Below, piece after piece: positions 4,650 to 58,319 of a stretch of 64,000 nt of DNA. This DNA comes from Cenococcum geophilum 1.58. Its lineage: Eukaryota > Ascomycota > Dothideomycetes > Gloniales > Gloniaceae. The notes below the pieces were generated by a model that did not search any database, was not told the DNA's origin, and saw only the letters and a list, made by a program, of their open reading frames with translations. Made by a program: the position numbers and the translations under genes. The stretch is from assembly GCA_001692895.1 (NCBI GenBank), contig KV748231.1:729888-793887 (forward strand), read 5' to 3'. Numbering within the stretch: position 1 is the first letter of the stretch; each line of letters begins with the position of its first letter.

Positions 4650-5960
4650 AAGCTCTACACGAAGCTCTTACACAAGCTCTGCACGAAGCTCTGCACAAGC
4701 CTCTACACGAAGCTCTGCACGAGCTCTGCACGAGAGCTCTGCACAGAAGCTCTACACGAAGCTCTGCACGAAGCTCTATCACGAAGCTCTGCGTATAGAG
4801 GCTCTGTACGAGGCTCTGCACGAGCTCTACACGAGGCTCTGCACGAAGCTCTACACGAAGCTTTGCACGAAGCTCGTACACGAGCTCTGCACGAAGCTCT
4901 ACACGAAGCTTGCCACGAAGCTCTACACGAAGCTTTGCACGAAGCTCTACACGAAGCTCTGCACACGAAGCTCTACACGAAGCTCTACACGAAGCTCTAC
5001 ACGAAGCTTTGCACGAAGCTCTACACGAAGCTCTACACGAAAGCTCTACACGAAGCTCTACACGAAGCTCTACACGAGCTCTGCACGAAGCTCTACACGA
5101 AGCTCTACACGAAGCTCTACACGAAGCTCTGCATAAAGCTCTACACGAAGCTCTGCACGAGGCTCTGCACGAAGCTCTACACGAAGCTCTGCACGAAGCT
5201 CTGCACGAGGCTCTACACGAAGCTCTACACGAAGCTCTGCACGAAGCTCTACACAAAGCTCTGCACGAAGCTTTACACGAGGCTCTACACGAAGCTCTAC
5301 ACGAAGCTTTGCACAAGCTCTGCACGAGGCTCTACACGAAGCTCTGCACGAAGCTCTGCACGAAGCTCTATACGAAGCTCTGCGTATAGAGGCTCTGTAC
5401 GAGGCTCTGCACGAAGCTCTACACAAGGCTCTGCACGAAGCTCTACACAAAGCTCTACACGAAGCTCTACACGAAGCTCTGCACGAAGCTCTACACGAAG
5501 CTCTGCACGAAGCTCTACACGAAGCTCTGCACAAAGCTTTGCACGAGGCTCTACACGAGGCTCTATACGAAGCTCTGCGTACAAAGGCTCTGTACAAGGC
5601 TCTGCACGAAGCTCTACACAAGGCTCTACACAAAGCTCTACACGAAGCTCTGCACGAAGCTCTACACGAAGCTCTACATAAAGCTCTACACGAAGCTTTG
5701 CGCGAGGCTCTACACAAAGCTCTACACGAAGCTTTGCACAAGGCTCTATATAAGGCTCTACACGAAGCTCTACACGAAGCTCTACATAAGGCTCTACACA
5801 AAGCTCTACGTATAGAGGCTCTATACGAGGCTTTGCGCAAAGCTCTATATACGGAGGCTCTACACAAAGCTCTGCACAAAGCTCTACACGAAGCTCTACG
5901 TACAGAGGCTCTGCACGAGGCTTTACGCGACATACAGAGGCTCTACACAAAGCTCTACAT
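4650..5960. repeat. 12-bp minisatellite, about 100 copies
   Basis: Tandem copies of a 12-mer close to GAAGCTCTACAC, with G/A exchange at one position (CTCTGCAC or CTCTACAC) and occasional GTATAGAG variants, run for about 1.3 kb. Because 12 is a multiple of three, frames stay open and give repeated four-residue peptides on both strands (ALHE, LYTK and SSTR forward; CRAS and VELR reverse). None of these looks like a gene. The variant copies recur as blocks, suggesting higher-order duplication. Confidence 0.9.
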
Positions 5961-7092: not shown

Positions 7093-7937
7093 TATACCCT
7101 TCTACGTCTAGTAGAGGTCTATTAGGGCAGTAATATAATTATAAACTAAGCGCTAGGAGAGCCGCGTCTTATCCTAGGGTATATTATTACTAGCCTTACA
7201 GCTTTTTACTTTTAGTAGCTAGCCTATAACCTCCTTAATAAGGAAAAGAAGTAGCTTCTCTTCCGTAATAGTATTACTATTATAGTACTACTTCCGCTTA
7301 TAAAAGGCCTAGGAAGACGCGCGTTAGTTATAAGTATATTACTCCGTAAAGCACCTACCTACTTACCTTAAACTCTTTCTACTTTAGCTTATAATTTAGA
7401 GACGTATTTTTAGGTCTCTTAGAATACATAAAGGTAAGGATACTCTACGCGTTAGCGCGTAGTTCGGCATTATTTATAACGTTAATCTTTACGCGACTAA
7501 TTAACGGCATTTTTAAGATATGTAGGACGCTGCTAGAGAAGCTGCGCCCTAAGGGGGGGTTTTTATTTTCCTATATACGCAGACATAAACCGGGGAGGAG
7601 AGGTAGAGAAAGCATACCTACTGGATAAGTAACCTTACCGCATAGGGTAAATAAACGGGCGCACGGCTAGGCCAATAGGCCAATAGTACGCGCGCATCAG
7701 CAACTCGATTAGTAGGGGTAAAGACATTCGAAGATGTCCACGGCTTGGCTGCAGGCTCGGCCGTGGACATCCGCGAATGTCGACGGGGGTTGTATGTGTC
7801 ACGTGCGGCTCAGCGACTGATCGGGCGCTCAGCCGAGCCGTGAACACCAACTATTCTTCGATTCAATGCTAATTACTCCAACCTCAGTCATCAATCAACC
7901 TGTTCCAACCCCAAAGGCAATCACATAATCGCAGCCA
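7093..7937. other. Intergenic, decayed on the left, GC-richer on the right
   Basis: No gene is seen. The left part to about 7550 is AT-rich and RIP-like; from about 7560 the composition becomes normal, marking the border of the small gene island. A strong hairpin sits at 7725-7779. Confidence 0.5.
7725..7779. repeat. 20-bp inverted repeat (hairpin)
   Basis: The arms at 7725-7744 (CATTCGAAGATGTCCACGGC) and 7760-7779 pair at 18 of 20 positions around a 15-nt loop. It lies about 160 bp beyond the stop codon of the minus-strand repeat-protein gene. It could be a tiny MITE or a structured 3' end; the sequence does not decide. Confidence 0.6.
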
Positions 7938-9017
7938 TTAAATATCAAGCACTCTTGCGATGATAAAGATTGCACCCCGTCCAGGACGATACAGAACGAT
8001 GCGAGTAGGTTTCCCGCTCACCCCGGCCAAAGCAAATGCTGTATCAGCAGGAGACCTCAAATCATACCCACCAATTCCCGCACCAGGGTCCCCTTGCGCA
8101 TACACAGCAACAAATTTGTCGCCCTGCCTTTTGATAATGAAGATGGCCCCTTTGCCCGGTCTGTACAAAACTAGGTGATCGAGCTTGCCGGAGCCGGAAA
8201 GGTCGTAGGCGAAAGCACGGTCGAGGGGCGATTTCAAGTCATATCCACCGATTCCGGACCCAGGGTCTCCCTCATGATATACCGGGGTGAACAATCCCTG
8301 GTCGTTGTTGAGGATCCAGAATGTTCCTGTTCCTGGGCGGTACAGGGCTATATGGTCCTGCTTCCCGGAGCTGTTGTAGTCGAAGGCAAAAGCGAGATCC
8401 TGAGGGGATCTGAGATCGTATCCGCCAATTCCAGACCCTGGGTCTCCTTGGTGGTAGATCGGGAACCATGCACCCTTCACCTTTCTAAGAATCCAGATTG
8501 TGCCAGTGCCTGGTCGGTAAAGAGCAATGTGGTCCTGTTTTCCGGAGGAATTATAGTCGAACGCAAAAGCTCGGTCAGCAGGAGATTTGAGGTCATATCC
8601 TCCAATCCCAGTGCCTGGGTCTCCCTGCTGATAAACCGGAGAGAAAGCTCCTTTGTCGTTCTTGAGAATCCAAAATGTTCCTGTCCCAGGCCTATACAGT
8701 GCGAGGTGGTCCAGTTTTCCAGAGGAATCGTAGTCGAACGCAAACACACGGTCGTTGGGAGATTTGAGGTCGTAACCTCCAATTCCGCTACCGGGGTCTC
8801 CCTGTTGATAGACCGGCTTGTAGTTCGTATCCCCAGTGTCCTGCAGGATCCAGATTGTGCCGGTTCCAGGGCGGTACAACACCAAATGGTCGAGCCTACC
8901 AATGGAGTTGTAGTCGAATGCGAATGCCTTATCCGCAGTCGACTTCAGATCATAACCGCCGATACCGGAACCAGGGTCGCCCTGGCTGTATAGGGAAATA
9001 TATCTTGGTTGCGCCAT
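7938..9017 (-). CDS. Six-repeat beta-propeller-like protein, 359 aa
   Basis: The protein is built almost wholly of six copies of a ~59-residue unit with the core QGDPGSGIGGYDL, then DRAFAFDYNSSGK, then LYRPGTGTIWIL. The repeats resemble FG-GAP/VCBS-type units found in fungal and bacterial lectin-like proteins, and six such units would suit one propeller or ring. There is no signal peptide, membrane segment or enzymatic motif. The first ATG in frame is at 9017; the frame stays open further upstream only with non-ATG codons. It is a single exon, intact, with a TATA-like run about 120 bp upstream. It sits alone between decayed repeats. Carbohydrate binding is a guess from repeat style; the function is unknown. 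Confidence 0.8.
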   Translation of the reverse strand: MAQPRYISLYSQGDPGSGIGGYDLKSTADKAFAFDYNSIGRLDHLVLYRPGTGTIWILQDTGDTNYKPVYQQGDPGSGIGGYDLKSPNDRVFAFDYDSSGKLDHLALYRPGTGTFWILKNDKGAFSPVYQQGDPGTGIGGYDLKSPADRAFAFDYNSSGKQDHIALYRPGTGTIWILRKVKGAWFPIYHQGDPGSGIGGYDLRSPQDLAFAFDYNSSGKQDHIALYRPGTGTFWILNNDQGLFTPVYHEGDPGSGIGGYDLKSPLDRAFAYDLSGSGKLDHLVLYRPGKGAIFIIKRQGDKFVAVYAQGDPGAGIGGYDLRSPADTAFALAGVSGKPTRIVLYRPGRGAIFIIARVLDI

Positions 9018-9133
9018 TGGGTTCGTAATGGTCTGCGCTATTGATTTGGATTGCAGTAGAGGAGGCTTATGCAAGAGGTGTTGTGGAAGTAGGTACTATG
9101 GAAGTAAACATACCTTCGGGGGGGGAGAGAGGC

Positions 9134-9146
9134 ATATATATAAAAT
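9134..9146 (-). promoter_or_regulatory. TATA-like element upstream of the repeat-protein gene
   Basis: On the minus strand a TTTTATATATATG run lies about 120 bp upstream of the ATG at 9017, a plausible core promoter position. It is a sequence match only. Confidence 0.35.
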
Positions 9147-9282
9147 CTCTCTGCTCAAGTTCGAGAAGCGCATTGTGCTTAGGATGGAATTAGACGCCGA
9201 CGGCTAGACATAGTTGGCTTTCAGCCGAGTATACAGAGCAGAGGACTCCCCTAGAACCAGTGTATACGCATTACTTCTCACG

Positions 9283-9443
9283 CCAGATAGGAAACAGATG
9301 CCGTGAGCACGCCATGTTGAGTACTCAGTCAGCCACACGAGACGAAACCTCTCCACAGTACACCGCCTCTTTACATCTCGTAGTAGGTGAAACAGGAAAC
9401 GGGTGTTATGAACTCGTCACGATTCGTACTCAGCCAGCCACAC
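9283..9443. repeat. Imperfect ~60-bp direct duplication
   Basis: Copies at about 9283-9338 and 9382-9443 share a GGAAACRGRTG-like start, a TGAGCACG/TGAACTCG middle and a GTACTCAGYCAGCCACAC end. It lies in the upstream region of the repeat-protein gene. The flanking 9450-10190 shows no gene. Confidence 0.45.
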
Positions 9444-10193
9444 TCCACTATCCTATGACGTGGTCCACTTTTCTAAGTCCCAAGAAACGCCATCACAATT
9501 AAGCAGATTAGAGGGGTTCTGTGGTTCTAATATTCGGTTTTCGATATCTACTACTTCACCAAATTAGCAGCTTACTACGAAGGAGTGATATTTTATAGAA
9601 ATTTAGAGATTTGTGCCCTAATAGAGACTCACTTCCCATATCAATTTCGAATATAAGCGCCACGTAACACATTAAACTGCCTAATAACCAAATTGCAGCA
9701 TTAATTTAGGAAGCAGCGAAACAAAATTCAGCTAGCCATTTTGCGGAGTATCCCGTTAAGAATTATAGGTAACACGCCACTATACAGGTCAGCTGTACAC
9801 ATTAATGCGCCTGCATTTCTATGCTATGCGCTGGTGAGACACGTCCATTTTTAGTGGACCAGATCGCTTAGATTTTATATCCTCATCGTCGAATTGAAGC
9901 CGTAGGTTTAATCGATTAATTGAAGCTTGATGGAGCTGCAATGAAGCCCAAATTTAATATATATTGATACTATAGAGACTTAATTCGATCGAGGTGTTCC
10001 TGCCAGCAAGGTCCTTCCTTCCAGTTGGTGAAGACGATTGTTAGTATTTTGATGTTCACGCACAGGCCACACGCTAAAAAGGGACGTCACCAGCGCATGG
10101 GATACTCGGGCCGCTGATCGATCGCGATCGCACTTACCTCCGGTAAGTGCCGGCCAGCTCAACGCCAAATTTGCCAAGACAGTGATTTTAAAG

Positions 10194-10527
10194 CTATCCC
10201 TTACATACAAGGGGGTAACACGTACGGGGCAGACGCCCTCCCTGTTAGTATGCTAGCAGAATAATACAGCCCAACCATTTTGCAAGGGCTCACTTATTTG
10301 AAAACATACTAGTAGGGAGGGCGTCTGCCCCGTTCGTGGTCTCCCTTGTAAATAGATGCGTGCTCAAGATAGTGGCCCGTGCTTAGCCAATTAATATTGC
10401 GAAAATCCGATTAAGCGAGCCTCACCTAAATTTAATAGGTGAGGCTCGCTTAATCGGATTTTCGCAATATTAATTGGCTAAGCACGGGCCACTATCTTGA
10501 GCACACATCCATCTATGCAAGGGATAG
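10194..10527. mobile_element. MITE family B, copy 1, with long palindromic core
   Basis: The outer ends read CTATCCCTTRCATA and the inverse TATGCAAGGGATAG. Inside, 10360-10504 is a near-perfect palindrome of about 145 bp centred near 10432, with arms that start GTGCTCAAGATAGTGGCCCG. The left arm of the outer repeat is split by a family A MITE at 10208-10348. A relative with the same ends and the GGCCCGTGC core lies at 29358-29525. Confidence 0.75.
10208..10348. mobile_element. MITE family A, copy 1 (141 bp), nested in MITE B
   Basis: The TIRs are about 45 bp: left CAAGGGGGTAACACGTACGG, right (inverse) CAAGGGAGACCACGAACGG, both continuing GGCAGACGCCCTCCCT and ending near AGTATG. TA flanks both ends (10206-10207 and 10349-10350). 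Removing it restores the left end of MITE B. The same family is found at 39598-39736. Confidence 0.85.
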
Positions 10528-10798
10528 AGCTCCACCTAACAGTCGAATATGTAGAATCTTATAGTATAGTACTAGTTTCTTAATAAGAGGTCTATATAAA
10601 ATAGATTAAGGTTCTAGCCGCCTTATAGCTTTTTAAAAAGAGCAGCTTTATAATTACTCGTTCCTTTCTTAATAATATATATACAGCTTTTATAAGGTGA
10701 CAGGCTCCGCACCACCCAGCCACGGTATAAACCCCAAAAGGTAAGCGAGTGACTGGCAAGATGCCAGGCACGGCGGCTATGCGGAACAATATATATAG

Positions 10799-10906
10799 TT
10801 GTCTTAGCATGCTTAGACTATATAGGAGGCCGGATAAATCCGGCCCGATGGCACTAAACCAGTTTAGGCTATCTGTCCCTGTGTAGTCTAAGACACTTTA
10901 GCAGAC
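10799..10906 (+). repeat. Left terminal inverted repeat of the helicase/DUF6589 transposon
   Basis: It contains the outer block at 10799-10820 and the inner block at 10886-10903. CTTAGACTATATAG and the inverse copy CTGTGTAGTCTAAG inside it can fold into a hairpin. Compared with the right end it carries more T where the right has C, as after RIP. Confidence 0.6.
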
Positions 10907-13043
10907 GTTTATAAAGCACGCCGCGATATCTATATGGCTGATATTACGGATATTTACTTCTTATTCTTACGATAAGTTTAGGCAGCTTAAAAAATCTATT
11001 AATTATATACTAGGCTCCGGCAAATTAAATAGTCTATATAAAAAGTCTCCCCGCCTTCCCATTCCTAACATTAATTTTAAAATAGCTGTAACGCGGTTTA
11101 CTAAAGTAAATAATTAGCAATATCCGCACCAATAATGCGTTAATCTTAACTACCCACTCTCTATCTATTATATCCATAATCTAATAATTAAAACCTATTA
11201 AGATCTATCTATTATAACGTATTTAAGTCCTCCTTACCTTTATCTAACCCTCTATTCTCCCTTTACTACTTTTAAACGCTATTTACTAATACCTCTATTA
11301 AAGTAAATAAGGTAAAGAGGTTATAAACTATAAGCCAGTTAAGCAGATTAATAAGCTAGTAGTATGTAATAGGCTAGGGATTATATTAAAATAGATCTCT
11401 AGCTATCTCTATAGCTATATAGCCTATAAAGGGAGCTACCTTAGCTTATAAGCAGCTTTTATAAACTTTAAATAAGTAAGCTAGATAAAGCTATTACGGA
11501 GATATATCTATACTACGGTTATACGGAGCAGCTTAAGGCCCTAAGGGTGCTAATATTTAAGCGGCGAGATCTTATACTTATAGCAAAGACGTCTTTTAGT
11601 AAGAGTATAATAATATAAGTACTACTATGTCTTATACCTAATACAGTTATTATTATTATTCTTTTACTTAACGCGATTAGGTTAGAGCAAGTAAAAAAGA
11701 TTATAAAGCTACCTTATGTTCGACCTATTTATATATAGGAGAAAATAATATCCGCTAAGCTAATTAAGGATATCCGCACAGGCAGCTATATATATATCCT
11801 TATCTCCCTAGAGCTTTTAGTTAGTAATAAGCTATATAAGGTTCTAATAGACCCAATATTTCGTTCCTATATTACCCTTATAGTAGTTAATAAAGTATAC
11901 CTACTTACTAATTAGGGAGAGACCTTCCGTATAGCGTATATATAACTCTTTAAAGTATGTTTAGTCTTAGTTAATAAGCCTTAGTTTATATATACCGCAA
12001 CACTAGACCTATCTACGTTTTAGACTATATATAAGCTAGCTAGGTTTAAACCTAATATATAAGTTATTAAAACCCTAATTAATTGGCCGGAGCTAAAGAT
12101 TATATAGAGGGTTATAACCGCGCTAGAGAAAAAGGACTTTTAAACTCTTTACTTTACTATTGCTGCTGCTCTAGTATATTTATATACTGCTAGTAATAAT
12201 AATTAAGGAGAAGGTAAGTAATTAAGAAGCCACTTAATATCCGTATAGTAGATATACCGCTAATAGTTTAATTAACTTCAGCTAATTCTAAAGATAATCA
12301 TCTTCTTTAATTCTAAAGAGTGGATAGCTGCCTATTGTAATACTATTCGCAGCTAGTTAATCTATCGCGGCTATAATGCTGCTATTACTAAAGAAGCGGT
12401 GTAGAGCTACTATATAACGCTTACGGATATTAATAAAGACCGCTTATACGCCAAATACGCGCGCCCAACGTCTTAAATTCGAATTTTTATTATATTAGAT
12501 GCAGTAACATACGGTATAGATATCCCAGATATCTACCGTTTAATCTAATATAGAATACCTCGCCATAAATCCTATAATATGCTGATATAGCGGTTTAGCT
12601 AGGCAGGCCAAGGAGAAGGCCTCTTAGGCGAAGCAATCTTTATAGTTAAGAGCCGCTAATAGGGTCCTTGCGATAAATTAGGTAGTTTTAAGTATACACA
12701 ACCTTAGTGTAAAGGCGATCTTCGCGTAAGCGCGCTGCGTAATAATATCTGCGGGCGATAAAACGTAGAGACTGCGGATATTACGGGCGATACTTTATCT
12801 ATAGCGTTAGTTAGTACTAAGCAGTTGGTAGATATAAGAAGCGGGCGTAGGTTAAGCCCTAGTAGTTCTATAGCACGCCTACCTAAAGAGCTTATTATAC
12901 TAACCCTACGCCTAAAAAAGCGGTTAACTAATGCGCAGTTATATAGTAAACTACCATTCACCCTATAGCAGCTAGTTAATAAGGATTAGGTATACTTATA
13001 AGCAATATAACTTATACACTATAGAGACCCACAGTCTACTATT

Positions 13044-13268
13044 TGTTACGGCACTGGCAGAAAGCGGCAGCTATGGTAGACGTTATAGTAGACGCAGGGC
13101 TTACGTGACTCTTACGTGACTAGGGATTGTATATAACTCCTCGCGTTGCTACTTATCCTTTCCTTTCCTTTTCTCTAGCTTTAGATTCTCGTTTATAGAC
13201 AATCCAATCGTACAGGCTTACGCGACCCTTTTGCCGTGCTTATGTCTCGATTGACTAAGTCGCTAATA
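13044..13268 (+). repeat. 5' LTR of the Ty3/Gypsy copy
   Basis: 225 bp, TG...TA ends, matched by 18720-18944 at about 97 percent. Preceded by CTATT. Confidence 0.9.
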
Positions 13269-16200
13269 TTATCTAAAGCTCACTCTACTCTTTTTTCCTA
13301 AGAAGGAACTTAAATATATCTATAAGAACACAGAACAGGACCCTAAGGACATTAATAGGACCACAAGGACAGGACCTAAAAGAAAAGGACAGAACCCCAA
13401 AAAAAGAACCTACAAAATACGCACAGACTAGAACCCCTAAAGAAATTACCCGGAATTACCTAATACCCCTACCACCATGCCACAAACCATAGTAGCAGGT
13501 AAAGCAGCTATAGGACCCTTAAATACTTCAGACAAAGAAATAATTAACGTTTTAACCCCCTAGGCGGAGCTTACGGCTGCTAATGCCGAAATTAAACAAC
13601 TACAAGAGCTGCTCAAAGCTAGAGATACCCCTATATCTAATAATAAGTCATCATTAGACAACTAAAGACTTGCTATAGTCCTTTAGGCCCTATTTTAGCG
13701 CCTTAGTAAACCTACTAAGGCCTATATAGCACCGAGGCGGTTAGTAAAGGTTGCGGATCCCCCGCTACTTATAAATGGAACTAACCCTACATTTAACAAT
13801 TAGAAGCTTTAATTGCGGGATAAGCTTAAAGTTAATATAGACTACTTCCCTAACGCCCAAGCCAGAATAGCCTATGTTTTCGGCCGTACTGGCGGAGACG
13901 CCTAGATATATTTACGCCTATAATACACTAAAGACTTAGTAAACCCCTTTATCTTTAAAGAAGAAATAATTAAACACTTGTCTTCTATTTATAAAGACCC
14001 TTTTAAAGTATAAAACGCCCGCCTTAGCTATAAAAGCCTAAATATAAAAATAATGGAGACCTTTTTGGCCTTCTAAACCCGCTTTCTACACCTGGCCAGA
14101 TAGGCCTAGATCCCCCAGAAAGACCTACTACTAGACCTCTTCAATAAGCTTACCCTAGACCTATAGCGGGCCGTATTACTAGCTTATACTACGGCATAGA
14201 CGTTAAAGGAACTTACGGACTATTGCCTGGCTATTAACTAAGGCCTTTATTAAATTAAGGCACGCGCCAACTGGCTAAAAACTAGAAATCTTGCAAACCA
14301 GGCCGCAAGTACTATAAGTACGGCCCGTAGTGCCCCGGTATAATTAGCAACTTCTATAGTTAACCTAGCAGCTAGCTACGTAGCTACCCCTACTACGGGC
14401 CCGGTATACACCCGGCTTATATACAGCGACCCCTATATATAGGCCCTTAGTGATTAAGGAGCTTGCTTCTTGTGCGGTTAAATAGGCTACCCTATAAGGA
14501 ACTACTTAATAAAGGTAAAGATAAATAAGGTTTTATTAATTTAGGAGGATAGTATAGAGCCGGAAAAAGAGGAACCCTAGAGGAAGACTCCTCTTTAGGG
14601 TTAAAAGGGATTAATATGTTATATATTAATCTGGGTTAGCTAGTTAGTAGAAGAAACTGCACTATCCCTTATACTTTATTTCGTAATAAATATTAAGTTT
14701 TAACCTCTGCTTTAGCTAACTTAGGAGTAAATGCCTTTACCTTAATTAATATAAAGTGCGCTATAAAACTGGCTAACTTTTTAAATACACCCCTTAAAGA
14801 ACTACCTAAACTAGTCCCTATTCGCGGTTATAACGGATAGATAGAACTACCTATTATAACTATCTTGCGGATCTACCTCCGCGTTAACGGACGAAGGTAG
14901 TATAATATCCCCTTCCTTATTACGGACCTTAGAAGCTATAATATAATCTTAGGAAGAAAATGGCTAGCCTATTTAGGCTTATAGCTTAATATATAGAATA
15001 GGCAGCTTATCTAGCCTAAAACTATGCCCCTAACGCCTTCCTTTATAAAAGAGATTAGTATTATAATAAAAAACCTTATACGGCCGCAGATAAACACCGT
15101 TTACTAGGCTAATACAACGCGTAGGGACTAGGCTTTTAAGAAGGATATACAGCTTAATCCATAACAGATCTATATACTACGCCGCCCCTAAACTACCTAT
15201 ATTATACCACCCGTACTAAAGACTTAGGAAGTTAATAGTGGCCTAACTAAGTCCCTAATAGAGAACTTAGGCCCTACGTAGCCATAAAGAAAGGCTAGGG
15301 ACTTTAGACAATATACCAAACTAATAGACCGGAAGGATAACTTACGGAAAATAGAATGTAAGCTAAGGAAGACTATAAACCCTATACCGTAAAATACAGC
15401 CTAATAAATATCCGTAAAGAAACCTACAGACCTCCCGCCAGTTAATATCTGCTATATTAGCGCTATAGGATTTTACTAAAACCTGGTTTAGCCTAATACC
15501 GTTACCTTTACAACTAGCTTATATAAAATTAATTAAATAATTAAAGAGAAAGAAGCCCTAGCCTAAGAGAAAGGTAAGCTTATAGACAAGGAGCTAGTAG
15601 AATAGAAACTGCCCTATTAATACCAGAAATTTAAAAATACTTTCTCTAAAGCAGCGTCTAATATACTCCCGCCTTACCGACCGTATAACTATAAGATTAA
15701 AATTAAGCCGGACAAGGTAATTACCCTTAGCTATAGCCCCCTCCAACAGTAATCTACTGCCAAATTGCAGGCTATAAAGTAGTATCTTATTAATAACCTA
15801 GATAAGGGCTTTATTAAGCCTAGTTAAGCCCCTTTTAACTTACCTATTCTCTTTACCAAAAAGCTAAATAGAGGACTTCGTTTCTATATTAACTACCATA
15901 AGCTTAATAATTTAACCCTTAAAGACCGCTACCTACTGCCTTTACTTAATAAGACTTTGGCCCAAATAAATAGAGCTAAGATCTTTACAAAGCTTAATAT
16001 CCGCCAGGCTTTTTACCGAATTAGAATGGACCCTAAATTAGAAGACCTTACTATATTTCAAACCTGTTACGGAATATATAAATATAAAGTACTACCTTTT
16101 AGGCTAACTAACGGACCGGCTATATACCAACGATATATAAATAACGTACTATTTAACTACCTTAACGACTTCTATACAGCATACCTAGATAATATTATAA

Positions 16201-18719
16201 TCTACTCTAAAAACGAACTGGAATATAAAGAGTATATCTATAAAGTCCTATAACGGCTTTAGGAAGCTAGCCTCTAAGCCAATATTAAGAAGTTAGAATT
16301 TAGTGTTAAGCATATAAAGTACTTAGGGTTTATTATTAGTATAAACGGGATTAAGGCAGACCTAAAAAAGACGGCCGTAATTAACTAATAGGTACCCCCA
16401 AGGACCGTAAAGGGGGTGCAGTCATTTTTAGGGTTCTGTAACTTCTACCGACGCTTTATTAAGAACTACAGCAGAATTACCCAGCCACTAAGCCTACTTA
16501 CCCATAAGGACCAGCCCTTTTACTTTAACACCGTATATAGGCAGGCCTTTAACGAGCTTAAGAAACAACTGGTCTCTGCTCCCTTACTCGCCTACTTTAA
16601 CCCAAAACGGCCCTTAATGCTAGAAACCAATGCCTTAAATAGTATTATAGCTAGCGTTTACTCCCAAAAGCAGATAAACGGAGAATAGCACCCTATTGCT
16701 TACTATTTAAAGACTATAGTAAATGCTAAGCTAAACTACCCGATTCATAATAAAGAAATATTGGCTATTATTTATAGCTTTCAGCACTGGCGAGTATAGC
16801 TAAAAGGGACCCCCAAACCTATCCAAGTGGTTTTAAATTATAAGGCCTTAGAATATTTTATAATAATAAAAGCCCTTATAGCCCGGCAGGCGCGCTAGGC
16901 GGATATCCTATCTTAGTTTAACTTCCTAATTATATATAGGCTAGGCGCTACTAACTATGCGGATACTCTTATAAGACGTAAATAGGACCTAAATAACCAG
17001 ATAGCCGCAAAGATCTTATTACAGACCTAGACGCTACTATAACCAGAGCACCTTAACCCTTAAATACGGGAAGAACTAAGTACTAAATCTTTAAGCGCCA
17101 AGATATATTTTATCGACCCTATAGAATTTGACCTTATTAATAAACTACTACAAGTAAACCGTACGGACCCTTCTCTACAGGAGTACCGCGAAAAGGCAAA
17201 GGATGTTACTAGCCTATGGTCCCTTAAAAATGGACTACTTAAGCACTAGGAACGGCTAGTAGTAGTAAAAGAACAGAACTTACAAACCCGGCTTATTACC
17301 AAAGCACATACCCAGGTCTCTACGGCCTACCCTAGAAAAAATAAAACCCGTAAGATTATTAGTAACCATTACTACTGGCCCGGAATAGTTACAGATATTA
17401 ACCGTTATATACGGAACTGCAACAACTGCCATAGGTCTACAATTCCACGAGATAAGACCCCAGGACTATTAAAGCCACTCCTAATACCAGAGCGCCCCTA
17501 GCAGCATATCTTTATGGATTTCCATAAACTACCAGTAGACCGTGACGGGTACGATATGGTTATAATCTTAGTTAACTATTTTAGCAAACGCCCTTTCTTA
17601 ATCCCCTATTACAAGAATATCGATGCTAAAGAAGCGGCCCAACTATATATCTATTACATCTACCAAATTTACGGACCATTAGATACTATTATATCGGACC
17701 ACAGACCATAGTTTATATTAGCTTTCTAGAATAAGTTTACTTAGATCCTAGGAATTAGGCTAAAGCTTTTTACGGCATACTACCCCCAGACAGACGGTTA
17801 GACGGAGATTATAAATCAATACTTAGACCAGAGACTCCGGCCCTTTATTAACTACTTCTAAGATAACTAGGGCAAACTGCTACCTCTAATAGACTACACC
17901 TAGGCGACCCTACCCCACAACTCTACGGGATTCGCACCTATCCAACTAAAAATGGGGTATCTACCACAAATAAGCTTTAACTGGGATAGACCAGAAGGAC
18001 CACGGACCATACGCGAGAAACTATCTTATAAGGAAGCCTAGCAGTACGCCAAGCGCTTAAAGAAAGCCTAGACGGTAGCCCGTATAAATCTAGAAAAGGC
18101 CCAAAAATTAATAAAACAGTAGGCAAACAAGCATAGGCGCGAGCCCGACTTTACCGTAGGTAATATAGTCTAGGTTACAACAAAGAACTAGAAGACGGAA
18201 CGGCTAAGTCATAAGCTCGATTATTAGATAGCAGGACTATATAAGGTCCTTAAGAAAATAGGCAACTCGTATAAAGTAGAGCTCCCAGATTCAATTAAGG
18301 TTCACCCTATCTTCTCGCTGGATAAGCTACGGAAGGTAGCGAACGACCTATTACCTAGACAAAAGAACGAACCCCCCCTGCCGATTTAAGTCAATGGCGA
18401 CAACAAATGGGAAATTAAAGAGATACTAGCCTGTAAGCTAGTAAGGAAAACGCTAAAGTACCGCGTTAGTTAGAAAGGCTATAACCTAGATCCTACCTAG
18501 TACCCTACATGGAACTTTATTGGCAGTCCCTATAAGCTTTAAGAATTTTATAGCTGTTACCCTAACAAACCGGGACCGCCAAAGTACCTAGACAAATAGA
18601 TGGAATGCTAGCATAATAAAGATAATAAGCTACCGGAAGAGCATAAAGATAAGAATACCCTATGGGCATAATACGGATATATAAAGCCTAAGGGCAGGCT
18701 TTTACGGAGGGGGGGGTAA

Positions 18720-18944
18720 TGTTACGGCACTGGCAGAAAGCGGCAGCTATGGTAGACGTTATAGTAGACGCAGGGCTTACGTAACTCTTACGTGACTAGG
18801 GATTGTATATAACTCCTCGCGTTGCTGCTTATCCTTTCCTTTCCTTTTCTCTAGCTTTAGATTCTCGTTTATGAACAATCCAATCGTACAGGCTTGCGCG
18901 ACCCTTTTGCCGTACTTATGTCTCGATTGACTGAGTCGCTAACA
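18720..18944 (+). repeat. 3' LTR of the Ty3/Gypsy copy
   Basis: 225 bp, TG...CA ends, preceded by a G-rich polypurine tract and followed by the CTATT duplication. Confidence 0.9.
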
Positions 18945-19999
18945 CTATTAGTAAAGACTTATATTACAGTAACTGCAACCTAGCAATATTTATAGATTAT
19001 AAGTATAATATCCGCACTAGCCATAGTACGGATATTACGAAAACCCGCTAGGAGCCTATATTAAGTAATATATAGAAGTAGTTTATATAATAGGCGGAGG
19101 CTAGGTATTAGGATATATTATAAACGCCTATAGTTAATTATATTATACCGGATAAGCAGCTTTATTGCCTCTATAATATAAGATAGGTTCTAAATACGGC
19201 ATTATTAAGGCAAGTAATGCCTAAGTAGGATCCTAATATCCTTAGTAAGGAGCTTCCATTCCTTATTAAGCTTTTAGCAGATAAGGAATAAAAGCAGAAA
19301 TAGAAAAAAATAGGGCAACTCTTAGGTTCTTCTAGGTTAATTATATAGATATTAGAGCGGTTTTCCTAAGCGTTAGAGCAGTACGCTACTATAGATAAGC
19401 GCTTATTATAGGCTCTTATATAGGCTTTGCAGGTTTTAGATAGAAGATTTAAAATATTAGCGCCTTACTATAGCGCTAATATATTATAGGCTAGTTAATA
19501 ATTAGCTATAGACCTCTTACCAATAACTTAGAAAGAGGATGTACCTATGCCTTTACTAACTCTTAGGTCTCTAGCTCCTACTCCTCTATTATTACCCTTA
19601 TACTAGCCGTTAGATATATCTATACCGCTAATAACCCGCTAGTTAGATACGTCTTTATTAGTACTATAAAGGTAGTTAGCGCGATTAAATAGAAGTAAAC
19701 GTATATAAAGAGCACTATAGGAAATTAACGGCAACGCTAATTAGTATATAGCGGGCTAATATTAGGCGAGGTTAGTTAATATTAGGCGGGGTTAGCTAAT
19801 ACTAGGTAAGTTTACCTTATATCCGCTAAGCGGATATTATAACTATAGTAGCTAATATCTATTAGGATAACGCCCCCCCTTCCCCTTATACCCTATACCC
19901 CTAGCAAGCGCGGCCTAGGAACTAAATAGATTAATTAATTAATAATATTAATTACTTGGGAATATATACTAGTGCTACTAACTATAGCGGATATTAAAT

Positions 20000-22852
20000 A
20001 GTTATAGTAATAGCTTATAGCTAATATCTTATATTACTTATTAAGTAACTTATACGCAGGTTAAAGCTAGGTTTAAGTAAAGTTGGTAGGGAGTATAAAG
20101 CTATCTAGCTTATTATTATTGTTATAGAGATTAAGCTTATTAAATATAGCGGAAAGATTACCGCCTAGCCGTAAATTAAACTCATTAAGGGCAGATTAAT
20201 TAAGTCGTTTAATACCTAGTTATAGTAGAGGCGGCGCTTCTATCTTTACTTGCCGTACCTAATAATAGATAATAAAACCTTTGGCAATTGTATTAGTAAG
20301 CAATTAAATATTTGCTACAGGAGATTTAACAGTATATTAAGTAGACATCCGTTCGCCGAATATAATCTTAAACTTTACACGTAGTAGCCCTATATAATTA
20401 GTTATATAAATACTCTAGCGGAAGAGTAAGTCTAGGTTAAATGTTAAATTGCCATAAGTGTATATAAGCTGCTTTAGCTCCCTATTAAGTAGCTTATTGT
20501 CAAGATCTATTGGGTAATAACTATCCTATTTACCGCGGATATTTACTAGACTATTTACTAGGATAGCTTACTAGAGCTTAGGGGAACAAGCATCTATTAA
20601 AGTTAACTAGAAAAAACGTAATATTTCTAGTAGATAGTTCTTATTTTAACTACCTATAAAATAGGTATAAATGTAGGGGAGTATATAGCTAAGCAGACTA
20701 ATATCCGCAAGCTTAATGGCGTGCTTAAGGACCTTATATATCTCTACTAGTTATAAAAAGCGGACATGCGTTAAAAACTCTGTATTAGTAGGCTTAAAAA
20801 GTGTTTATAAGGATATAGTACTACCAGCCTACTTAAGGTAACCCTTTTACTATAGTTCCGTAAGCTAGCTAGTATAGTTAGCCGCCTAAGAGACTTCCTA
20901 ACCAAAAACCGCTATGCAGATATTCTTAACTACTACTAATAGACGTTGCGGAGATAGGCTTTTAAGGTACCGCTTAATATCTATAGGCGATTTAGTATTA
21001 TAAGACTCCTTAATCTAAGTATAGAGTAACGCTATAATACAAGCGTTAAAGCTATAGAGAATTAGCTCCTCTATATAATAAAATAGCGCGCGCTTGGCTA
21101 GGATATTTCTTTAACCTAGGTGGTTTATATAGGTATACAGCATAGAGTACTCTTAGGCTAATTGCTTGCTACTATAGTAATACCGTATAACTATATATAG
21201 GTAGTTTAGCTTTAGGTGCTAAAGAGCTAAAATAAGTAAAGCCTAACGCAGGCTATTATAGGCGGATATTAACTTAGTACGTTCTCCCTAATATAACCAA
21301 ATAAGCTTTACGGTCTTTTAATTACCATAGATTAGAAACAGTCGCTCCTTAAATACTTTATTGGTATGTTATAGATTTATTTAATAAAGAAAAATATCGT
21401 CTAGTACCTTATAGGTTTTAGATATAAAAGCCTCTTTAGTTATAATAGGTTCTAGGTTAAACCTAGACGTTTATATAGCGGGTATTACATTAATAGAAGG
21501 TATACGTAATGTTTAAACCGTAGGTTTTTGCTAAGTAATATATTAAGGCCTAGGTACACCTCTATAATGGCTTTATAAATTAAAGCTATTAAGATCTACT
21601 TTTATATCTCGTTTTATAAATTACCTAAAGCCTCTACAATATCCAAAAACTTAATTAAAATATCCACACAAAGCATGCTCTATTAAAGCCTACTATTAGG
21701 TATACTTATACTAAAGATAAGCTTACTAGTTATGCGCGAATAGAACGTCCTAGTATCCTTAAGTATTTAATACTAAACTCGTTAGAGGTAGTTAAAGTTA
21801 TTATAGACAATAATAGTATTAGAAGCTGCACCTATTAAGCGGATTTTTACCTATATATAGGTTAGTATATACCTGCACCGCGGAGATTATAGGCTAAACC
21901 TTAATTCCTAGGCTATCCGCTCCTTCTGCTAGTTTAAAATAGTATAACTATTAATTAATCTAAGCCTATAGAGCATAGAAAGCACGCGGCGCTTAACGCC
22001 GTTAGCTTAAAGATATATCCCTAGCAGCTATAGGATATAGTTTATAAAGTTTTATAAAAGGCTAAATATAAGCGTAGAAGCTATTAGAACCGCACGGCCT
22101 TTATATAAAGAATATTTATATTAACCCTCTTAATATACTGTAATTATATGCTTTAGTATAGGTGCGTAAGTCTTTACGGCTTGATAGTACTGCCTAAGGT
22201 TAAGCTACTTAATATCCGCATATTAGTTAAAGCTACCAAATAGTAACTCTTTCTCCCTTAGCTCTTTAAGCTCTCCCTAAATAGTAAGAGTAATACTAGC
22301 ACCCACTATACCGCGCTTCTCTATCTCTTTAGTATAAATATTTAAAATATCAGCATCCTCTAGAAGTTTATTAAGGAGCTCCCTTACTTTTTTTTTCTTT
22401 AGTACCTTGCGTAAACCTTCAGCCATTATAATCTATTTAAGCGCTAGGTCTCCTATAGACATCCGCTATAGCCTAAAACGGTTAATAATTACCTAGACCT
22501 TCTCTATAGCGGATATCTTCTTGGCGGATATTGCGGATATTATAGGTATTTTATTAACTCTTACTTCTTTATCCTCTTAGGGATCTATATAGTTTGGTAG
22601 TAGTAAATAGGCTATTAAGGACCGCCATTAAGCTGCGGATAGCAATAGGGAAGATAATAGGGGAGATAATAGGGGAGACGATAGGGGTGGGACAAGACGG
22701 CTAATGCCCTCGGGCACTATATCCGCTGTATCTCTTAATCCTCTAGCGGTATTAGTTAATAGAGAGGGTAGTTTATTATTAAAAGCTTAAGAAGACTAGC
22801 TCCTACTAGACGAAATAGAGGGGTTTCTTTAACGCCTTTTAGATACGCCCAT
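20000..22852 (-). pseudogene. DUF6589-type gene remnant, minus strand
   Basis: Reading on the minus strand from an ATG at 22852 (MGVSKRR...) gives a long, lightly interrupted frame. It passes a Ser/Pro-rich N-terminus with the peptide GISRLVPPLS, then a charged stretch GLRKVLKKKKVRELLNKLLE (about 22420), then GVKRRVLSMLYRLRLINSY, then YNNFNYL followed by a TSKLIF-like peptide, the order seen in fungal DUF6589 proteins. Stops are scattered, mostly TAG/TAA, as after RIP. The C-terminal end near 20000 is not defined. The length would suit the ~900-1000 aa of the family. Its place just inside the right terminal repeat, facing a helicase remnant, suggests it is the mobility gene of the 12.3-kb element; that role is inference. 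Confidence 0.55.
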
Positions 22853-23013
22853 GGCTGGCAGTTGGTTCTGGAAAATCCATTAATTAGAGAGCTGATTAAG
22901 GCAATTCTAATGTAGGTATTAACAGGATAATAGACATGGCGGTTGCTTACATTAATTTCGTTAAAGTTAATGGTTTGCCTTATATAAACAGACCAGCTTA
23001 GCTTCTAAAAGCT

Positions 23014-23131
23014 TGCTAAAGTGGCTCAGACCAAGAAACAGATGGATCGATCGAATAGGTTAGCTTGCGGATATTCGATTATCCGCGCAGCGGATATTCA
23101 TCGGTTTCTTGGTCTGAGCATGCTGAGTCAA
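23014..23131 (-). repeat. Right terminal inverted repeat of the helicase/DUF6589 transposon
   Basis: The inner block is at 23014-23031 and the outer block at 23110-23131. A CTCAGACCAAGAAAC/GTTTCTTGGTCTGAG inverted pair forms a stem around a loop holding GCGGATATTC, ATTATCCGCG and GCGGATATTC, that is, three copies of the dispersed motif within the terminus. Confidence 0.65.
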
Positions 23132-23731
23132 TACATATAGGCGAGGTGACTTCGTCACCTGACAACGGCCCTAACGTCGTCACAAATATCTTTTATCTAT
23201 TTTTTAAAAGTAAACCCTTTTTATTACTGCCGGAAATATATTATTTAGCGATATTTAAATAGACAGAGACAAATTTACAGTCTTCCCCTTTAGCAAAAAA
23301 CAGGTTCGCTACAAGCATTTAATTTCGCTAGATTACCACAGCAATCCGCAGTGTCGCGATCTTTGTCAAATATCGTGAGGGTTTTTACCCTGTACGATAT
23401 TACCAAATTTCATCGACCTCTCTGTAGAAACAGCGTTGTATTCGAGTTTTGGCGGCCACAACGGAGGTAGGTAGAAAAGAGGAGAAGAGGAAGCGGACGT
23501 CAGGCAACTTCTTTCTTGCTTTAATTCGATTCTCCTGGCCAACCAAGGCGATTCTCCAGGACAACCAAAAAGGCCCTTGCGTGCAGCCACAGCCGTTCGC
23601 TACAATTACCACGTAGAGTTGGTGGCGATTGAGCGAAATTTGATGCGCGTACCGAATTTAAAATTTTGGAGCGCTCCCTAAAGGGGGGGAAGCTGGTCGT
23701 GCACAAGACTGAAAGAGTTACAAAGACATTA
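23132..23731. other. Intergenic, no gene seen
   Basis: Normal to slightly AT-rich DNA between the right end of the transposon and MITE D. Short frames on both strands lack recognisable features. Confidence 0.5.
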
Positions 23732-23865
23732 ACGTGGACGGTGTTTTGACCCCTGGTTAGAAAATCAAAATTAGCCGAAATGCTAATTTGGTGGTAAACA
23801 ACTAACTTAACAAAAGTTCAAATCGGTCATAACTAGGGGAGCAGTCAAAACCCCGTTAACCACGT
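23732..23865. mobile_element. MITE family D (134 bp)
   Basis: Imperfect TIRs of about 30 bp begin ACGTGGACGGTGTTTTGAC on the left and ACGTGGTTAACGGGGTTTTGA on the inverse of the right. TA flanks both ends (23730-23731 and 23866-23867). No coding capacity; TA target suggests a Tc1/mariner-related parent. Confidence 0.65.
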
Positions 23866-23970
23866 TATATTAATACGTATCGACGTAACAGGCAAGCATG
23901 CCACGGAACTGCCTTTGAGACATTTTCACACTTGCTGGTTGGGCGTAGGTCCATTCGTAATTGTAGCATA

Positions 23971-24219
23971 ACGTAATCCACAAGCAAGTGGCCAGCACAA
24001 GCATNTGGCCACGCTACCACGCTACCGCGCTGTTGTGGCAGATTGAAAGCTTGTAAATTGGCCTTGCTTGTGGGCTTTGATAGCTAGAACAAGTCTACCT
24101 TTTTGAAAAAGAGTATTCTGCTGTTGTGGTGTGGCTATTATAGATAGTAGTTAAGGAACGCGTCGCGTTTTGGTGGGGCGGCCACATGCTTGTGCTGGCC
24201 ACTCGCTTGTGGATTACGT
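23971..24219. mobile_element. MITE family C (249 bp), Fot1/pogo-like ends
   Basis: TIRs of about 40 bp start ACGTAATCCACAAGC on both sides and pair nearly perfectly through GGCCAGCACAAGCA. TA flanks both ends (23969-23970 and 24220-24221). ACGTAATC ends are typical of Fot1/pogo-type elements. It lies 34 bp upstream of the tRNA gene. Confidence 0.8.
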
Positions 24220-24253
24220 TATAGACTTAAAAATTTTACCATTTAAACTGTTC

Positions 24254-24324
24254 GCATTGATGGTCCGGCGGTAGGATTCTTGCCTTCCAAGCAAGAGGCT
24301 CGGGTTTGACTCCCGGTCAATGCA
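24254..24324 (+). tRNA. tRNA-Gly (anticodon UCC)
   Basis: A 71-nt cloverleaf with a perfect 7-bp acceptor stem (GCATTGA/TCAATGC) and discriminator A, D stem GTCC/GGAT, anticodon stem CTTGC/GCAAG with loop CTTCCAA (anticodon TCC), and T arm TCGGG/CCCGG with loop TTTGACT. No intron. Confidence 0.95.
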
Positions 24325-24950
24325 TTATTAGGTGAAGAAACTATATCGTTTGAAGACCATTTTTGCCACTTTTCGTTCAGTATATGGGCTCTTTTTATTG
24401 AGGGTTAAGGAGTTATATTTGCGATTTGCGATCTTCTCTTGCGCAACCGTAGCCGCTGGAAGATCCCGAGCCCACCGTCAAGGCCGCACGAGGGGCTTCA
24501 CAATACCACTAACCGCCTCTACACTCATTCCTCCTACCAAGCTACGCCCTCACCGCACAACCTTGGAGACAGGTTCAGCTGCCTTGCCTGATTACGGGAA
24601 GCATTCTGATGGGCAGAGTTAAGTCTAGACCTCCAAAACTCTTCCAATAGATGGGTGTGCCTAGAAGGCCAAGCCTCCACGCGCTCCTAAGGCCGTCTCA
24701 AGTGGAGAGTTTTGCTATCAGGTGGCTCAATAATGGCTCGCGATGATGTAAGATTAGAAGGGCGAATGAAGTCTGCCTCACGCCCTCTATATATTTCTTT
24801 ACGCGTTTCTGCCGTTCTAGTCTTCAGCTCATACTCGCGTTCGTCCTTTCTTGACTTGGCGGTCTTGTGGCTGCCTCTTTCTCAATTCCAGCCTACAAAA
24901 TCACTATATCCCTACGTTTTGTCCAACCACGGAGTCTCTTTGCTACAATT
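24325..24950. other. Intergenic, no gene assigned
   Basis: A GC-richer block about 24430-24750 has open frames without recognisable motifs; it may be leader sequence of the DUF2235 gene or an old insertion. Confidence 0.4.
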
Positions 24951-26385
24951 ATGGCCTCGCAAGAACCCCTGCCGCACAGCGAGCCCCCAAAGGATCGAAA
25001 TAGAAAGCGTCTCATAGTCCTCTGCGATGGTACTCATCTAAAGCCCGAGTCGTTTTTGCAACAAGGATTTCAGATAAAACTGACTGCAGCTTTCAGGAAC
25101 ATGGCGAGACTCCACTTCCGACAACGAAAAGGCCAATCCATCAAATGTAACTCGGTTTGCTCGTGCTCTCAGCAAATGGGTCCGAATCAAGAAGGAAGAC
25201 GGCACAGATGAAGACGTCGAGCAAATTGTATATTACCAACAGGGAGTTGGTACCGGGACTCTGGATCGACTTATCGGTGGTGTTTCTGGCCTAGGTGTCT
25301 CCGCCAATGTTCGTGCTGCATATGGCTTCTTGGCTAACAACTACGATCCTGGCGATGAAATTTTCTTCGTTGGCTTCTCTCGTGGAGCCTACACTGCACG
25401 TTCGATTGCGGGGCTTGTTACTTCATGCGGGTTGCTCACTAAAAAGGGCATGGATAGTTTTCCTATTCTATACAACCTATATTACAAGGACTACAAGAAG
25501 AAGGGATATGCGGAGAAGGAGACGACATTTTTGCGCAGATTGCATGAAGATAGGCTGTTAGAACCGGCCGCAGCACTTGCAGTGGAGGCTATCGCCGTTT
25601 GGGATACGGTTGAATTCCATCAGACTTGGATTTCAACGACATGGATAGCGAAAATGCTAGGAATACAGCAGGAAACGATTGAATTCCGTGATAAGGAGCT
25701 GTCCCCGAAAGTCAAGTATGGGTTTCACGCCCTTGCGCTGGACGAGACGAGAAATCCATTCAAACCAACGCTCTGGCAGATGCCCAAAGCTCCAAACGGT
25801 GCCACGTCAGATGGGTCGAACTTCAGATTGAAGGAGCTGAAACAAGTCTGGTTCTCTGGTAAACATTCAGATGTTGGCGGCGGATATTCCCAGCGCTGGC
25901 TTTCTGACATCACTCTTGCATGGATGGTGGCACAATGTTCGCAAAATAACCTGCTCGGATTCGATGAGGATTATCTACTCAGTCTCCCCCTGCCTTCTAC
26001 TCCCGCAACAGACAAGCCTTGGGGCACCGCGAAGGGCCAAACCACGAGCGACAAGCAGGGTATATCTTGGATAATTGACAAGGCGTCTAGGACGTTACCG
26101 CTTCTTAGTTCTTACCGTGCGCCGCTTAGCCAGCCGGATACGAATGAGACCATCCATTGCTCAATTGAAAGTCGCAAGTTCGGCCAGTATCCCGGTTCCG
26201 ATAAAGCGAAACTATATCCGTGCGGCGCTTTAACGGGTTCCAAAGGACACGGCGGGTGGCAACTGAAGAGGATAGCCGACCTTTATCTTCCTGAGGCCAC
26301 TGCAAGTAAACTCGAGCAAACCTTTAAGGATCAGATAAGGCCGCCTACGAATCCTTCCGTTATGAATCTTGAACACCATAATTGA
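24951..26385 (+). CDS. DUF2235 family alpha/beta hydrolase-like protein, 455 aa
   Basis: Two exons, 24951-25029 and 25097-26385, with a 67-bp intron (GTACTC...TTTCAG, CTGAC branch) that joins LCDG to TWRDS. The protein starts MASQEPLPHS, carries the N-terminal CDGTW motif, the conserved QIVYYQQGVGTG stretch, the serine-elbow GFSRGAYTAR at about residue 130, an AVWDTVEF segment and GKHSDVGGGY, so the Ser, Asp and His positions of the family are all present. DUF2235 proteins are serine hydrolases or phospholipase relatives found in fungi and as bacterial effectors. No signal peptide or membrane segment is seen, so a cytosolic enzyme of unknown substrate is likely. It converges with the permease gene on its right. 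Confidence 0.9.
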
Positions 26386-56789: not shown

Positions 56790-58220
56790 CGTTATAAAAT
56801 AAGTACTAATGCTTACCTGCTAACTAGAAATACCTTCCCTATCCCTGAAATTATCTACAACCCGTCCCTTACCTTTAGCCCCTATGTTTTCCTTCTTAGT
56901 CTCCTTTTTACTAATTGGGCGTTTATAGTATATAACCTTATATCTCCTAAGGAGCTAAGTAAGCTCTATATTAAGCTAGGCTATAATAAGCTACCGTTAT
57001 GGCTGAATTGGAAACTAGACGATATTCCCGTGTTCCGCCGGTTAGTAAAGACTCTAAATAGCTGGACCATTTCTCGTAACGAACCTCTTTTATATTCTAC
57101 CCTTGTACCCTAGACCAAAGGGCTTAGGGAGATTATTGGCTTTGCTTAGGTCTCTTGCCTATATTTGCTTAGATATGGTGCCGGAAAGGCATTTAATAAG
57201 AATAGTAAGCTCCGTTGCGACCGGCCTTTTTATTAAAAGAACTAAAGAGAAATATAGGCAATATTAGCAAGGCTATATAAAACCTAATAATGCAGCATGC
57301 CGATATACGAACGTTCTTAAGGTACTACCTATCGCGGCGTATTATAGCAGACACATAGGCGATTATCTAAGGCCTTTAGCCCTAAGATATATTAATGCGG
57401 GCCGCTTATACTATAAGCTGTTTAATTAATCCTTAATAACCGCGGCGGCTTATAACAGAACAATCTTTATTAGTTAACAATTATTCTACTATCCGTTCTC
57501 TACTTAAGTAAAGAAAGTAACTTAAATACCGTTTTAAAGGTAAAGCTATAAAATATCTAAAGTATAAGGCGCTTAATGGCGAAATTAATAGCGAAAGGTA
57601 ACGTTAGTGATATACACTTCTTAAAGATATTAAGAAGACTTGGGAATAGGAGCAACTAATACGTAATATTAAACTGCAGCTTACTGGCGATTAAGTTAAT
57701 ATAGAGGCTGGGGTAATAATAGATCTCTATAAAGGCATGTTATTAAAATAGAAGGAATTAGTTAATGCGGTTGTTAGCCTACTAGGTACTATATTTAAAG
57801 AGGAGATTTATTAACGCGATAGGGCTAATTATATGGTTATGCAATACTATAAGGTTAAGGAAGGTAGAATATACCCTACCGCTTTTAAACTTTATAAATA
57901 ATCTAGTGGTTATATAATACTAGTTAAGACAATAGATAAGGCTAAGATTAACTCTTAAGTTAAAGCCTTAGAAGTAGTTAAAGTGTTAGTATATAGTAAG
58001 AAGAGGCTAAAGATATATTTTCTTTATCTAGGTAACGAAAACCTATTAATTAAATAGCGTATATATTTGTTTTATACCCTAGGTAATTTTAGTAAATACT
58101 TTAAGTAGAAGTACCTTGCGAATATTAGGGAAGGGGAAAAGATCTAATACAACCTCTATTAGGTTATTTTGGCGCATAAAATGCACTTATAATAATATTG
58201 TTACGGACCTTGTATTGGCA
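56790..58220 (+). pseudogene. DUF3435 tyrosine-recombinase-like gene remnant with C-terminal C2H2 finger
   Basis: Conceptual reading on the plus strand shows, in order, NPSLTFSPYVFLLSLLF, LNWKLDDIPVFRRLVKTL, LRYGAGKAFN (near 57170), ADIRTFLRYYLSRRIIADT (near 57310), LITEQSLLVN and a C-terminal C2H2-like LAHKMHL near 58170. This is the DUF3435 family, fungal tyrosine recombinases related to Crypton-like elements and to the captains of Starship giant elements. Many TAG/TAA stops remain, so it is dead. No element boundaries were found. Confidence 0.65.
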
Positions 58221-58319
58221 GTAGTAGAACTACTAAGGAGAGATATAAATGGACTAGTAGTAGAAGTATGGGAGGTGCTGGAACCAGTTAAACTATAGGA
58301 CGAGGGGTAGCCAAGTTAT

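Follow-up and report, generated by a model that had tools for sequence, protein, structure and literature searches.

We show here that positions 10799-23131 of a 64,000-nucleotide stretch of the Cenococcum geophilum 1.58 genome (contig KV748231.1, positions 729,888 to 793,887; G000:C56:729888-793887 in our assembly labels, and hereafter the window) are a copy of a DNA transposon with a net length of 6.43 kb, split by a 5.9-kb Gypsy element. By comparing this copy with others in the same genome (177 Mb in 162 contigs), we found that the transposon pairs a RecQ-like helicase gene with a gene for a DUF6589 protein, a predicted DDE-type transposase, and that its insertions prefer a spot whose 9 duplicated base pairs lie 15-17 bp from an RTCACGTGAY site resembling those of basic helix-loop-helix (bHLH) proteins, a preference that is apparently new. 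We consider it very probable that the window holds a copy, inactivated by repeat-induced point mutation (RIP), of a cut-and-paste transposon that was recently active and is of the AcademH kind, in which DUF6589 would be the transposase, the RecQ-like helicase its partner and insertion directed. What appears to be new, within the literature searched, is the identity of the transposase and especially the directed insertion.

The limits given for the element in an initial annotation of the window are exact to the base. Complete copies occur at 8 of the 20 places first fetched, and their shared ends correspond to window positions 10799 and 23131. The features of the window copy, with one related site elsewhere in the window, are as follows.

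10799..23131, unstranded: whole transposon copy, RIP-mutated, with ends common to complete copies at unrelated sites
10790..10798, unstranded: left target-site duplication, TATATATAG
23132..23140, unstranded: right target-site duplication, TACATATAG
10799..10820, plus strand: left 22-bp outer terminal block, TTGTCTTAGCATGCTTAGACTA
23110..23131, minus strand: right 22-bp outer terminal block, complemented TTGACTCAGCATGCTCAGACCA
10811..10901 (approximate limits), plus strand: left subterminal hairpin-capable stretch
23024..23119, unstranded: right subterminal hairpin, 24-nt arms 92% complementary
11517..19741, plus strand: RecQ-like helicase gene, RIP-broken and split by Gypsy; parts covered by the query 11517-13043 and 18941-19741
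20037..22852, minus strand: DUF6589 gene (PF20231), RIP-broken, predicted DDE-type transposase
13044..18944, plus strand: nested Gypsy long terminal repeat (LTR) element, LTRs 96% alike, foreign to the transposon
13039..13043 (left) and 18945..18949 (right), unstranded: CTATT duplication of the Gypsy element
23154..23163, plus strand: RTCACGTGAY-like motif of the window copy, GTCACCTGAC, its CACCTG core starting 15 bp past the right duplication
7776..7851, minus strand: homologue of the site where copy L038 inserted, here uninterrupted and holding the 9 bp once, with CACGTG at 7800

Without the nested Gypsy and its duplication, the window copy measures 6427 bp, compared with 6443 bp in copies L022, L026, L031 and L041, and other copies are continuous over window 13043/18945, where the window copy holds Gypsy. 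The independent copies and the empty sites described below bear out a DNA transposon of about 6.4 kb with helicase and DUF6589 as its two genes. Their tail-to-tail order stands as annotated, with the helicase on the plus strand and DUF6589 on the minus strand (22852-20037), whereas the statement that no other gene lies inside is true only once the Gypsy element is set aside. Both transposon genes are broken in the window copy, and no stop-to-stop frame of 120 amino acids or more is found in the element outside Gypsy.

The outer blocks TTGTCTTAGCATGCTTAGACTA and TTGACTCAGCATGCTCAGACCA match, two of their differences being C-to-T changes in the left block. A stretch able to form a hairpin follows each block, in line with the matching structured inverted repeats first noted. 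Both ends share TTGWCTCAGCATGCTCAGACCA, followed by stems of about 90 (left) and 96 nt (right) whose bases share TCAGACCA/TGGTCTGA. Beyond the base the letters diverge but the pairing persists, so that what the ends have in common is hairpin capacity, not letters. ViennaRNA gives -30.7 kcal/mol for the left stretch on copy L022 and -34.2 kcal/mol for the right on L022 and L028, energies whose parameter set (DNA or not) is unrecorded and which stand without a shuffled-sequence baseline.

The flanking TATATATAG and TACATATAG, annotated as a probable target duplication, agree at 8 of 9 positions, and all 13 copies with two regular ends (three of them short) have a 9-bp duplication, exact in nine and with one transition difference in four. 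Short copies of 1139, 1428 and 3801 bp are properly flanked. The 13 exclude copy L045, whose right end is altered and which lacks a duplication; it does contribute to the flank counts below, with its left flank in the set of 45 and its right flank in that of 40. Two empty sites carry a single copy of the 9-bp flank, of the kind that the initial annotation proposed to look for: copy L021 interrupts one arm of an inverted repeat, while the other arm (L021:4968-5054) is unbroken and has the 9 bp once, with one base different, and the second is the homologue of the L038 site at window 7776-7851. Searches of the genome returned at least 40 strong matches and one weak inverted match to the right end and at least 40 matches to the left end; since 40 of 205 right-end and 40 of 106 left-end candidates were scored, the copy number is a lower bound. 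Of the 40 listed right-end places, 36 are over 30 kb away from the nearest contig end (contig ends not being known to be telomeres), and the remaining four are on contigs that terminate inside the element. A left end at G000:C3:225134 and a right end at C3:509660, 284 kb apart, share the 9-bp duplication TGATCCCCT; this may be chance or the trace of a copy that a rearrangement has split.

At the first 13 sites, TCACGTG lies within about 50 bp at 8, compared with 0.5% of 5000 random windows (window 24000-56911). Within 60 bp of the element it is found in 15 of the 40 right flanks, at 60-120 bp in none of the 40, in 1 of 115 pieces at 120-300 bp and in 2 of 347 at 300-900 bp, and 13 of the 40 flanks have an exact CACGTG starting at offset 24, 25 or 26, counted from the end of the element, against a far-flank expectation of 0.006 per offset. 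Among 45 left flanks (31 newly fetched; that of L088 starts at a truncated end), 18 have CACGTG with at most one mismatch at 24-26, compared with 0.17 per offset further out. Outside the discovery sites (the first 13, plus L064 and L038_2, which belong to them), the motif is present at offsets 22-27 in 25 of 58 flanks, 12 of 27 right and 13 of 31 left. Altogether 38 of 85 flanks carry it, or 30 contexts after similar flanks are grouped (both sides of copy L022 included), against a mean of 1.4 and a maximum of 6 in controls slid outward; over these contexts the core starts at offset 24 in 13, 25 in 12, 26 in 4 and 23 in 1. When no preselection is made, the most frequent 6-mer at offsets 22-27 is CACGTG (22 of 85), the peaks of the five other six-offset windows being 3 to 7. 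Positions that played no part in the choice of sites extend the motif to RTCACGTGAY (R in 26, T in 21, A in 20 and Y in 23 of the 30).

Matching duplications allowed 25 sites to be paired, and 19 of these have the motif on one side (slid controls: mean 0.9, maximum 3), 10 on the right and 9 on the left with no orientation bias; L022 has it on both and was counted by the exact right one. Pairing allowed up to one mismatch in the duplication, so the 18 exact duplications of 25 do not give an unbiased rate, and the pairs include L081/L039 at 284 kb apart, two cross-contig pairs, one N (L009) and one transversion mismatch (L084/L060). At the L038 site, a single CACGTG lies between two copies, whose ends are both at the preferred distance from it. 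RIP-altered variants of the motif add no support, numbering 1 among the 47 motif-less flanks compared with a control mean of 1.4. No publication on CACGTG-directed transposons turned up in the literature search listings.

The DUF6589 protein, 939 amino acids from the first Met in copy L028, matches PF20231 at 1e-68. Its predicted structure has an RNase H fold, DDE order and an all-helical insertion, with ISCth4, Hermes and the P element as best matches, and the conserved D351, D511 and E743 are candidate catalytic residues. On this model DUF6589 looks like a DDE transposase, which supports the earlier suggestion that it is the likely mobility protein. A whole-protein search of the protein database gave at least two relatives, and a second search, with a region of a Trametes relative as query, gave at least 300 proteins at E ≤ 1e-3; 120 of these are listed, and the named ones among them are organisms that we take to be mushrooms. 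One database entry (source label lgn; 17 member sequences, 39 contigs) is identical to 64% of the DUF6589 protein. No relatives were confirmed in viral_contigs or genome_contigs.

Domain matches in the helicase are DEAD (5.9e-12) and Helicase_C (1.9e-8), and RecQ and WRN are its best relatives of solved structure (PDB). A Pfam RecQ_Zn_bind match is below the cut-off (E 0.088); relatives of the helicase retain a CLR and CCSNC segment similar to the RecQ zinc-binding region. The query behind the window coordinates lacks the N-terminus, and the 883-amino-acid frame found wherever a contig does not cut it places the start of the gene about 0.3 kb to the left of 11517. At 47 of the 49 listed DUF6589 matches, a tail-to-tail helicase match lies within 15 kb, and at 38 within 1 kb. 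Six gaps between the genes are 6.0-7.8 kb and look like nested insertions, and three are 1.3-1.5 kb; the remaining two DUF6589 matches have no paired helicase. Conversely, 12 of 59 helicase matches have none of the 49 listed DUF6589 matches within 40 kb, a count that is inflated, since it includes the window copy itself, whose DUF6589 is outside the 49. Helicase alignment in viral_contigs gave three matches at 21-30% identity. A second helicase at C75:763018-765069, beside L045, has a stop-free frame of 1184 amino acids and is 47% identical to that of the transposon; it possibly represents another family or a free-standing helicase.

Compared with the unmutated copy L028, the window copy has 440 C>T and 360 G>A changes and only 7 others, and 283 of 367 CpA sites are mutated, which shows that it was altered by RIP. 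Over more than 5.7 kb, L031, L038 and L041 differ from L028 solely by C>T or G>A. Stops interrupt 42 of the 49 listed DUF6589 matches. The seven without stops, complete at C41 and C43 and cut by the contig end at C88, C9, C42, C74 and C149, all scored 100% identical, as did the stop-free helicase frames of the eight unmutated copies listed (C41, C43, C42, C74, C149, C88, C9 and C70). These eight are situated at contig ends, probably because identical young copies broke the assembly. Contigs ending inside copies, mostly unmutated ones, are C41, C43, C45, C88, C9, C42, C74, C149 and C70, and their matching duplications suggest that C88 connects with C43, and C149 with C45.

The initial annotation had proposed a new transposon type. 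This is probably wrong; the type is likely to be AcademH, which has been described already. AcademH DNA transposons are reportedly the subject of Kojima 2020, Mob DNA 11:15. According to passages of PMC10045372, AcademH has target duplications of 9 or 10 bp and encodes a helicase, and passages of PMC10799480 describe it as low-copy in Basidiomycota, Ascomycota and Mucoromycota. As far as these passages go, the present element shares with AcademH the duplication length (9 bp in 13 of 13 copies), a helicase gene beside the transposase (47 of 49 listed), a DDD/E transposase (from the predicted fold and residues) and fungal hosts including Ascomycota, and differs in its high copy number, its insertion beside RTCACGTGAY and a transposase with Pfam DUF6589. 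Membership, assigned by described hallmarks rather than by comparison with an Academ transposase, is therefore probable.

In the mechanism that we propose, DUF6589 would bind both ends of about 100 bp, each made up of the 22-bp outer block and the hairpin-capable stem, cut the element out and reinsert it with a 9-bp stagger. Its conserved partner, the RecQ-like helicase, might open the hairpin-capable ends or intermediates of strand transfer. The transpososome would be placed by a protein sitting on the RTCACGTGAY palindrome, either a host bHLH factor or a transposon protein, such that the target 9 bp lie about two helical turns, centre to centre, from the palindrome, with the element in either orientation.

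Several observations weigh against this reading. Not all copies are young: L035, L037, L042, L043 and L044 show 1.8-3.1% non-RIP differences from L028, which, set beside the copies that differ by RIP alone, points to a recent spread followed by RIP inactivation for part of the family and to greater age for another part; nevertheless, the older L035, L037, L042 and L044, and the left flank of the L043 site, carry the insertion motif. Foldseek support for the DUF6589 fold is weak (best E 2.3e-3 and 3.8e-2), and a PDB sequence search with the protein found nothing better than E 0.11. At six of the 25 paired sites the motif is missing from the set distance (two of the six have an exact CACGTG elsewhere, at offsets 31 and 45), and three unmutated insertions (the starts of C74 and C42 and the end of C41) lack it on the one flank that was read. 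Certain flanks with the motif have repeat sequence in common (groups of 5, 3, 2 and 2). The copy number and the hallmark-based assignment to AcademH belong here as well.

RTCACGTGAY is a motif of the bHLH kind (CDEI/Cbf1), and 5.7 kb of an intact copy contain no CACGTG (one TCACCTG); for these reasons we favour a host bHLH factor, to which insertion may be tethered. On balance we lean modestly towards a eukaryotic DDE transposon, with a transposase of the DUF6589 family (expanded in mushrooms), that picks its sites through a Cbf1-like host factor on RTCACGTGAY, in the manner of Tn7 or Ty elements. Direct recognition by a transposon protein, through the N-terminal region of the transposase or the C-terminal region of the helicase, is a serious if less likely alternative. 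TnsD of Tn7 recognizes its target site in this way, and the narrow spacing (mostly 24-26) and lack of orientation bias would suit it; besides the bHLH-like motif and its absence from the intact copy, the genome-wide excess of RTCACGTGAY (1984 occurrences, compared with 791 of a reversed control pattern) argues for the host factor.

It is unlikely that the helicase is passenger cargo without a role in transposition. No role is evident from its sequence, and the short copies with proper duplications moved too, presumably in trans, but the gene pair is kept at nearly all listed places and every one of the eight unmutated copies listed retains a stop-free helicase frame. We find it somewhat less likely still that the element belongs to a separate, undescribed superfamily that only resembles AcademH in its helicase and 9-bp duplication. 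The name DUF6589 was not found in the literature searched, the likeness to AcademH rests on described hallmarks and not on transposase homology, and the copy number is above that described for AcademH; against this, duplication length, helicase, DDE fold and fungal host all agree with AcademH. That the element is a Kolobok carrying a RecQ helicase (KolobokH or similar) is highly improbable: Kolobok duplicates TTAA, and the varied 9-bp duplications here speak against it. Passages of PMC9587614 do describe RecQ helicases in such DDE transposons; the domain lies downstream of the transposase domain in KolobokH, in contrast to the separate convergent gene found here, and on the complementary strand in a rhodophyte Kolobok, as here. 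Helitrons were set aside on account of the terminal inverted repeats and duplications, with no profile test. We give hardly any credence to the motif signal being an artefact of insertion into a few CACGTG-bearing repeats, which the shared flanks might suggest, since 30 contexts remain after grouping (two of them the sides of L022), two copies flank the same CACGTG at the L038 site, and the motif recurs in flanks outside the discovery sites.

The neighbourhood of the element in the window has features of its own. To the left, a near-perfect palindrome at 10349-10515 has 80-nt arms, 96% complementary, and a 7-nt loop, and a second inverted repeat occupies 10212-10345; further out are a tandem array of about 108 copies of a 12-bp unit (4650-5959) and, on the minus strand, a 385-amino-acid frame of repeated units with YDLKS and LYRPGTG motifs (7938-9095). 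To the right, an inverted repeat at 23968-24222 has 52-nt arms, 90% complementary, and overlaps a segment (24035-24171) that has 77% identity with the host repeat of the L021 insertion. A tRNA-Gly (TCC) lies at 24254-24324, about 1.1 kb from the element, and an RNA family scan of window 8000-26000 found nothing besides one tRNA. Positions 57000-64000 have RIP-type composition, with a GC content of 25-35% and a strongly strand-uneven GC skew of up to +0.43.

Altogether, DUF6589, a large fungal family without a function name, gains a testable function as a DDE transposase, and the insertion record suggests that targeting to a fixed distance from a site of the transcription-factor type is within the reach of a eukaryotic cut-and-paste transposon. 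With hAT (Hermes), the P element and the IS256-type ISCth4, the DUF6589 protein may share, on weak structure matches, a predicted RNase H fold, DDE order and all-helical insertion; it differs in having no PDB sequence match and an accompanying helicase, and hAT and P elements make 8-bp duplications in place of the 9 bp seen here. As in TnsD-directed Tn7 transposition and the tethered integration of the Ty/Tf1 type, insertion occurs at a set distance from, or beside, a protein-bound sequence, but here the element is a eukaryotic DNA transposon, the sequence is a bHLH-type palindrome and the bound protein is a presumed partner. Our data also lend support to the view that RecQ-like helicase genes located in fungal repeats can belong to transposons. 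The fungal subtelomeric RecQ helicases discussed in passages of PMC4522978 and PMC5576322 likewise have RecQ-type DEAD and Helicase_C domains and lie in repeats, whereas the copies described here, compared with them by description and not by sequence, are dispersed over contigs.

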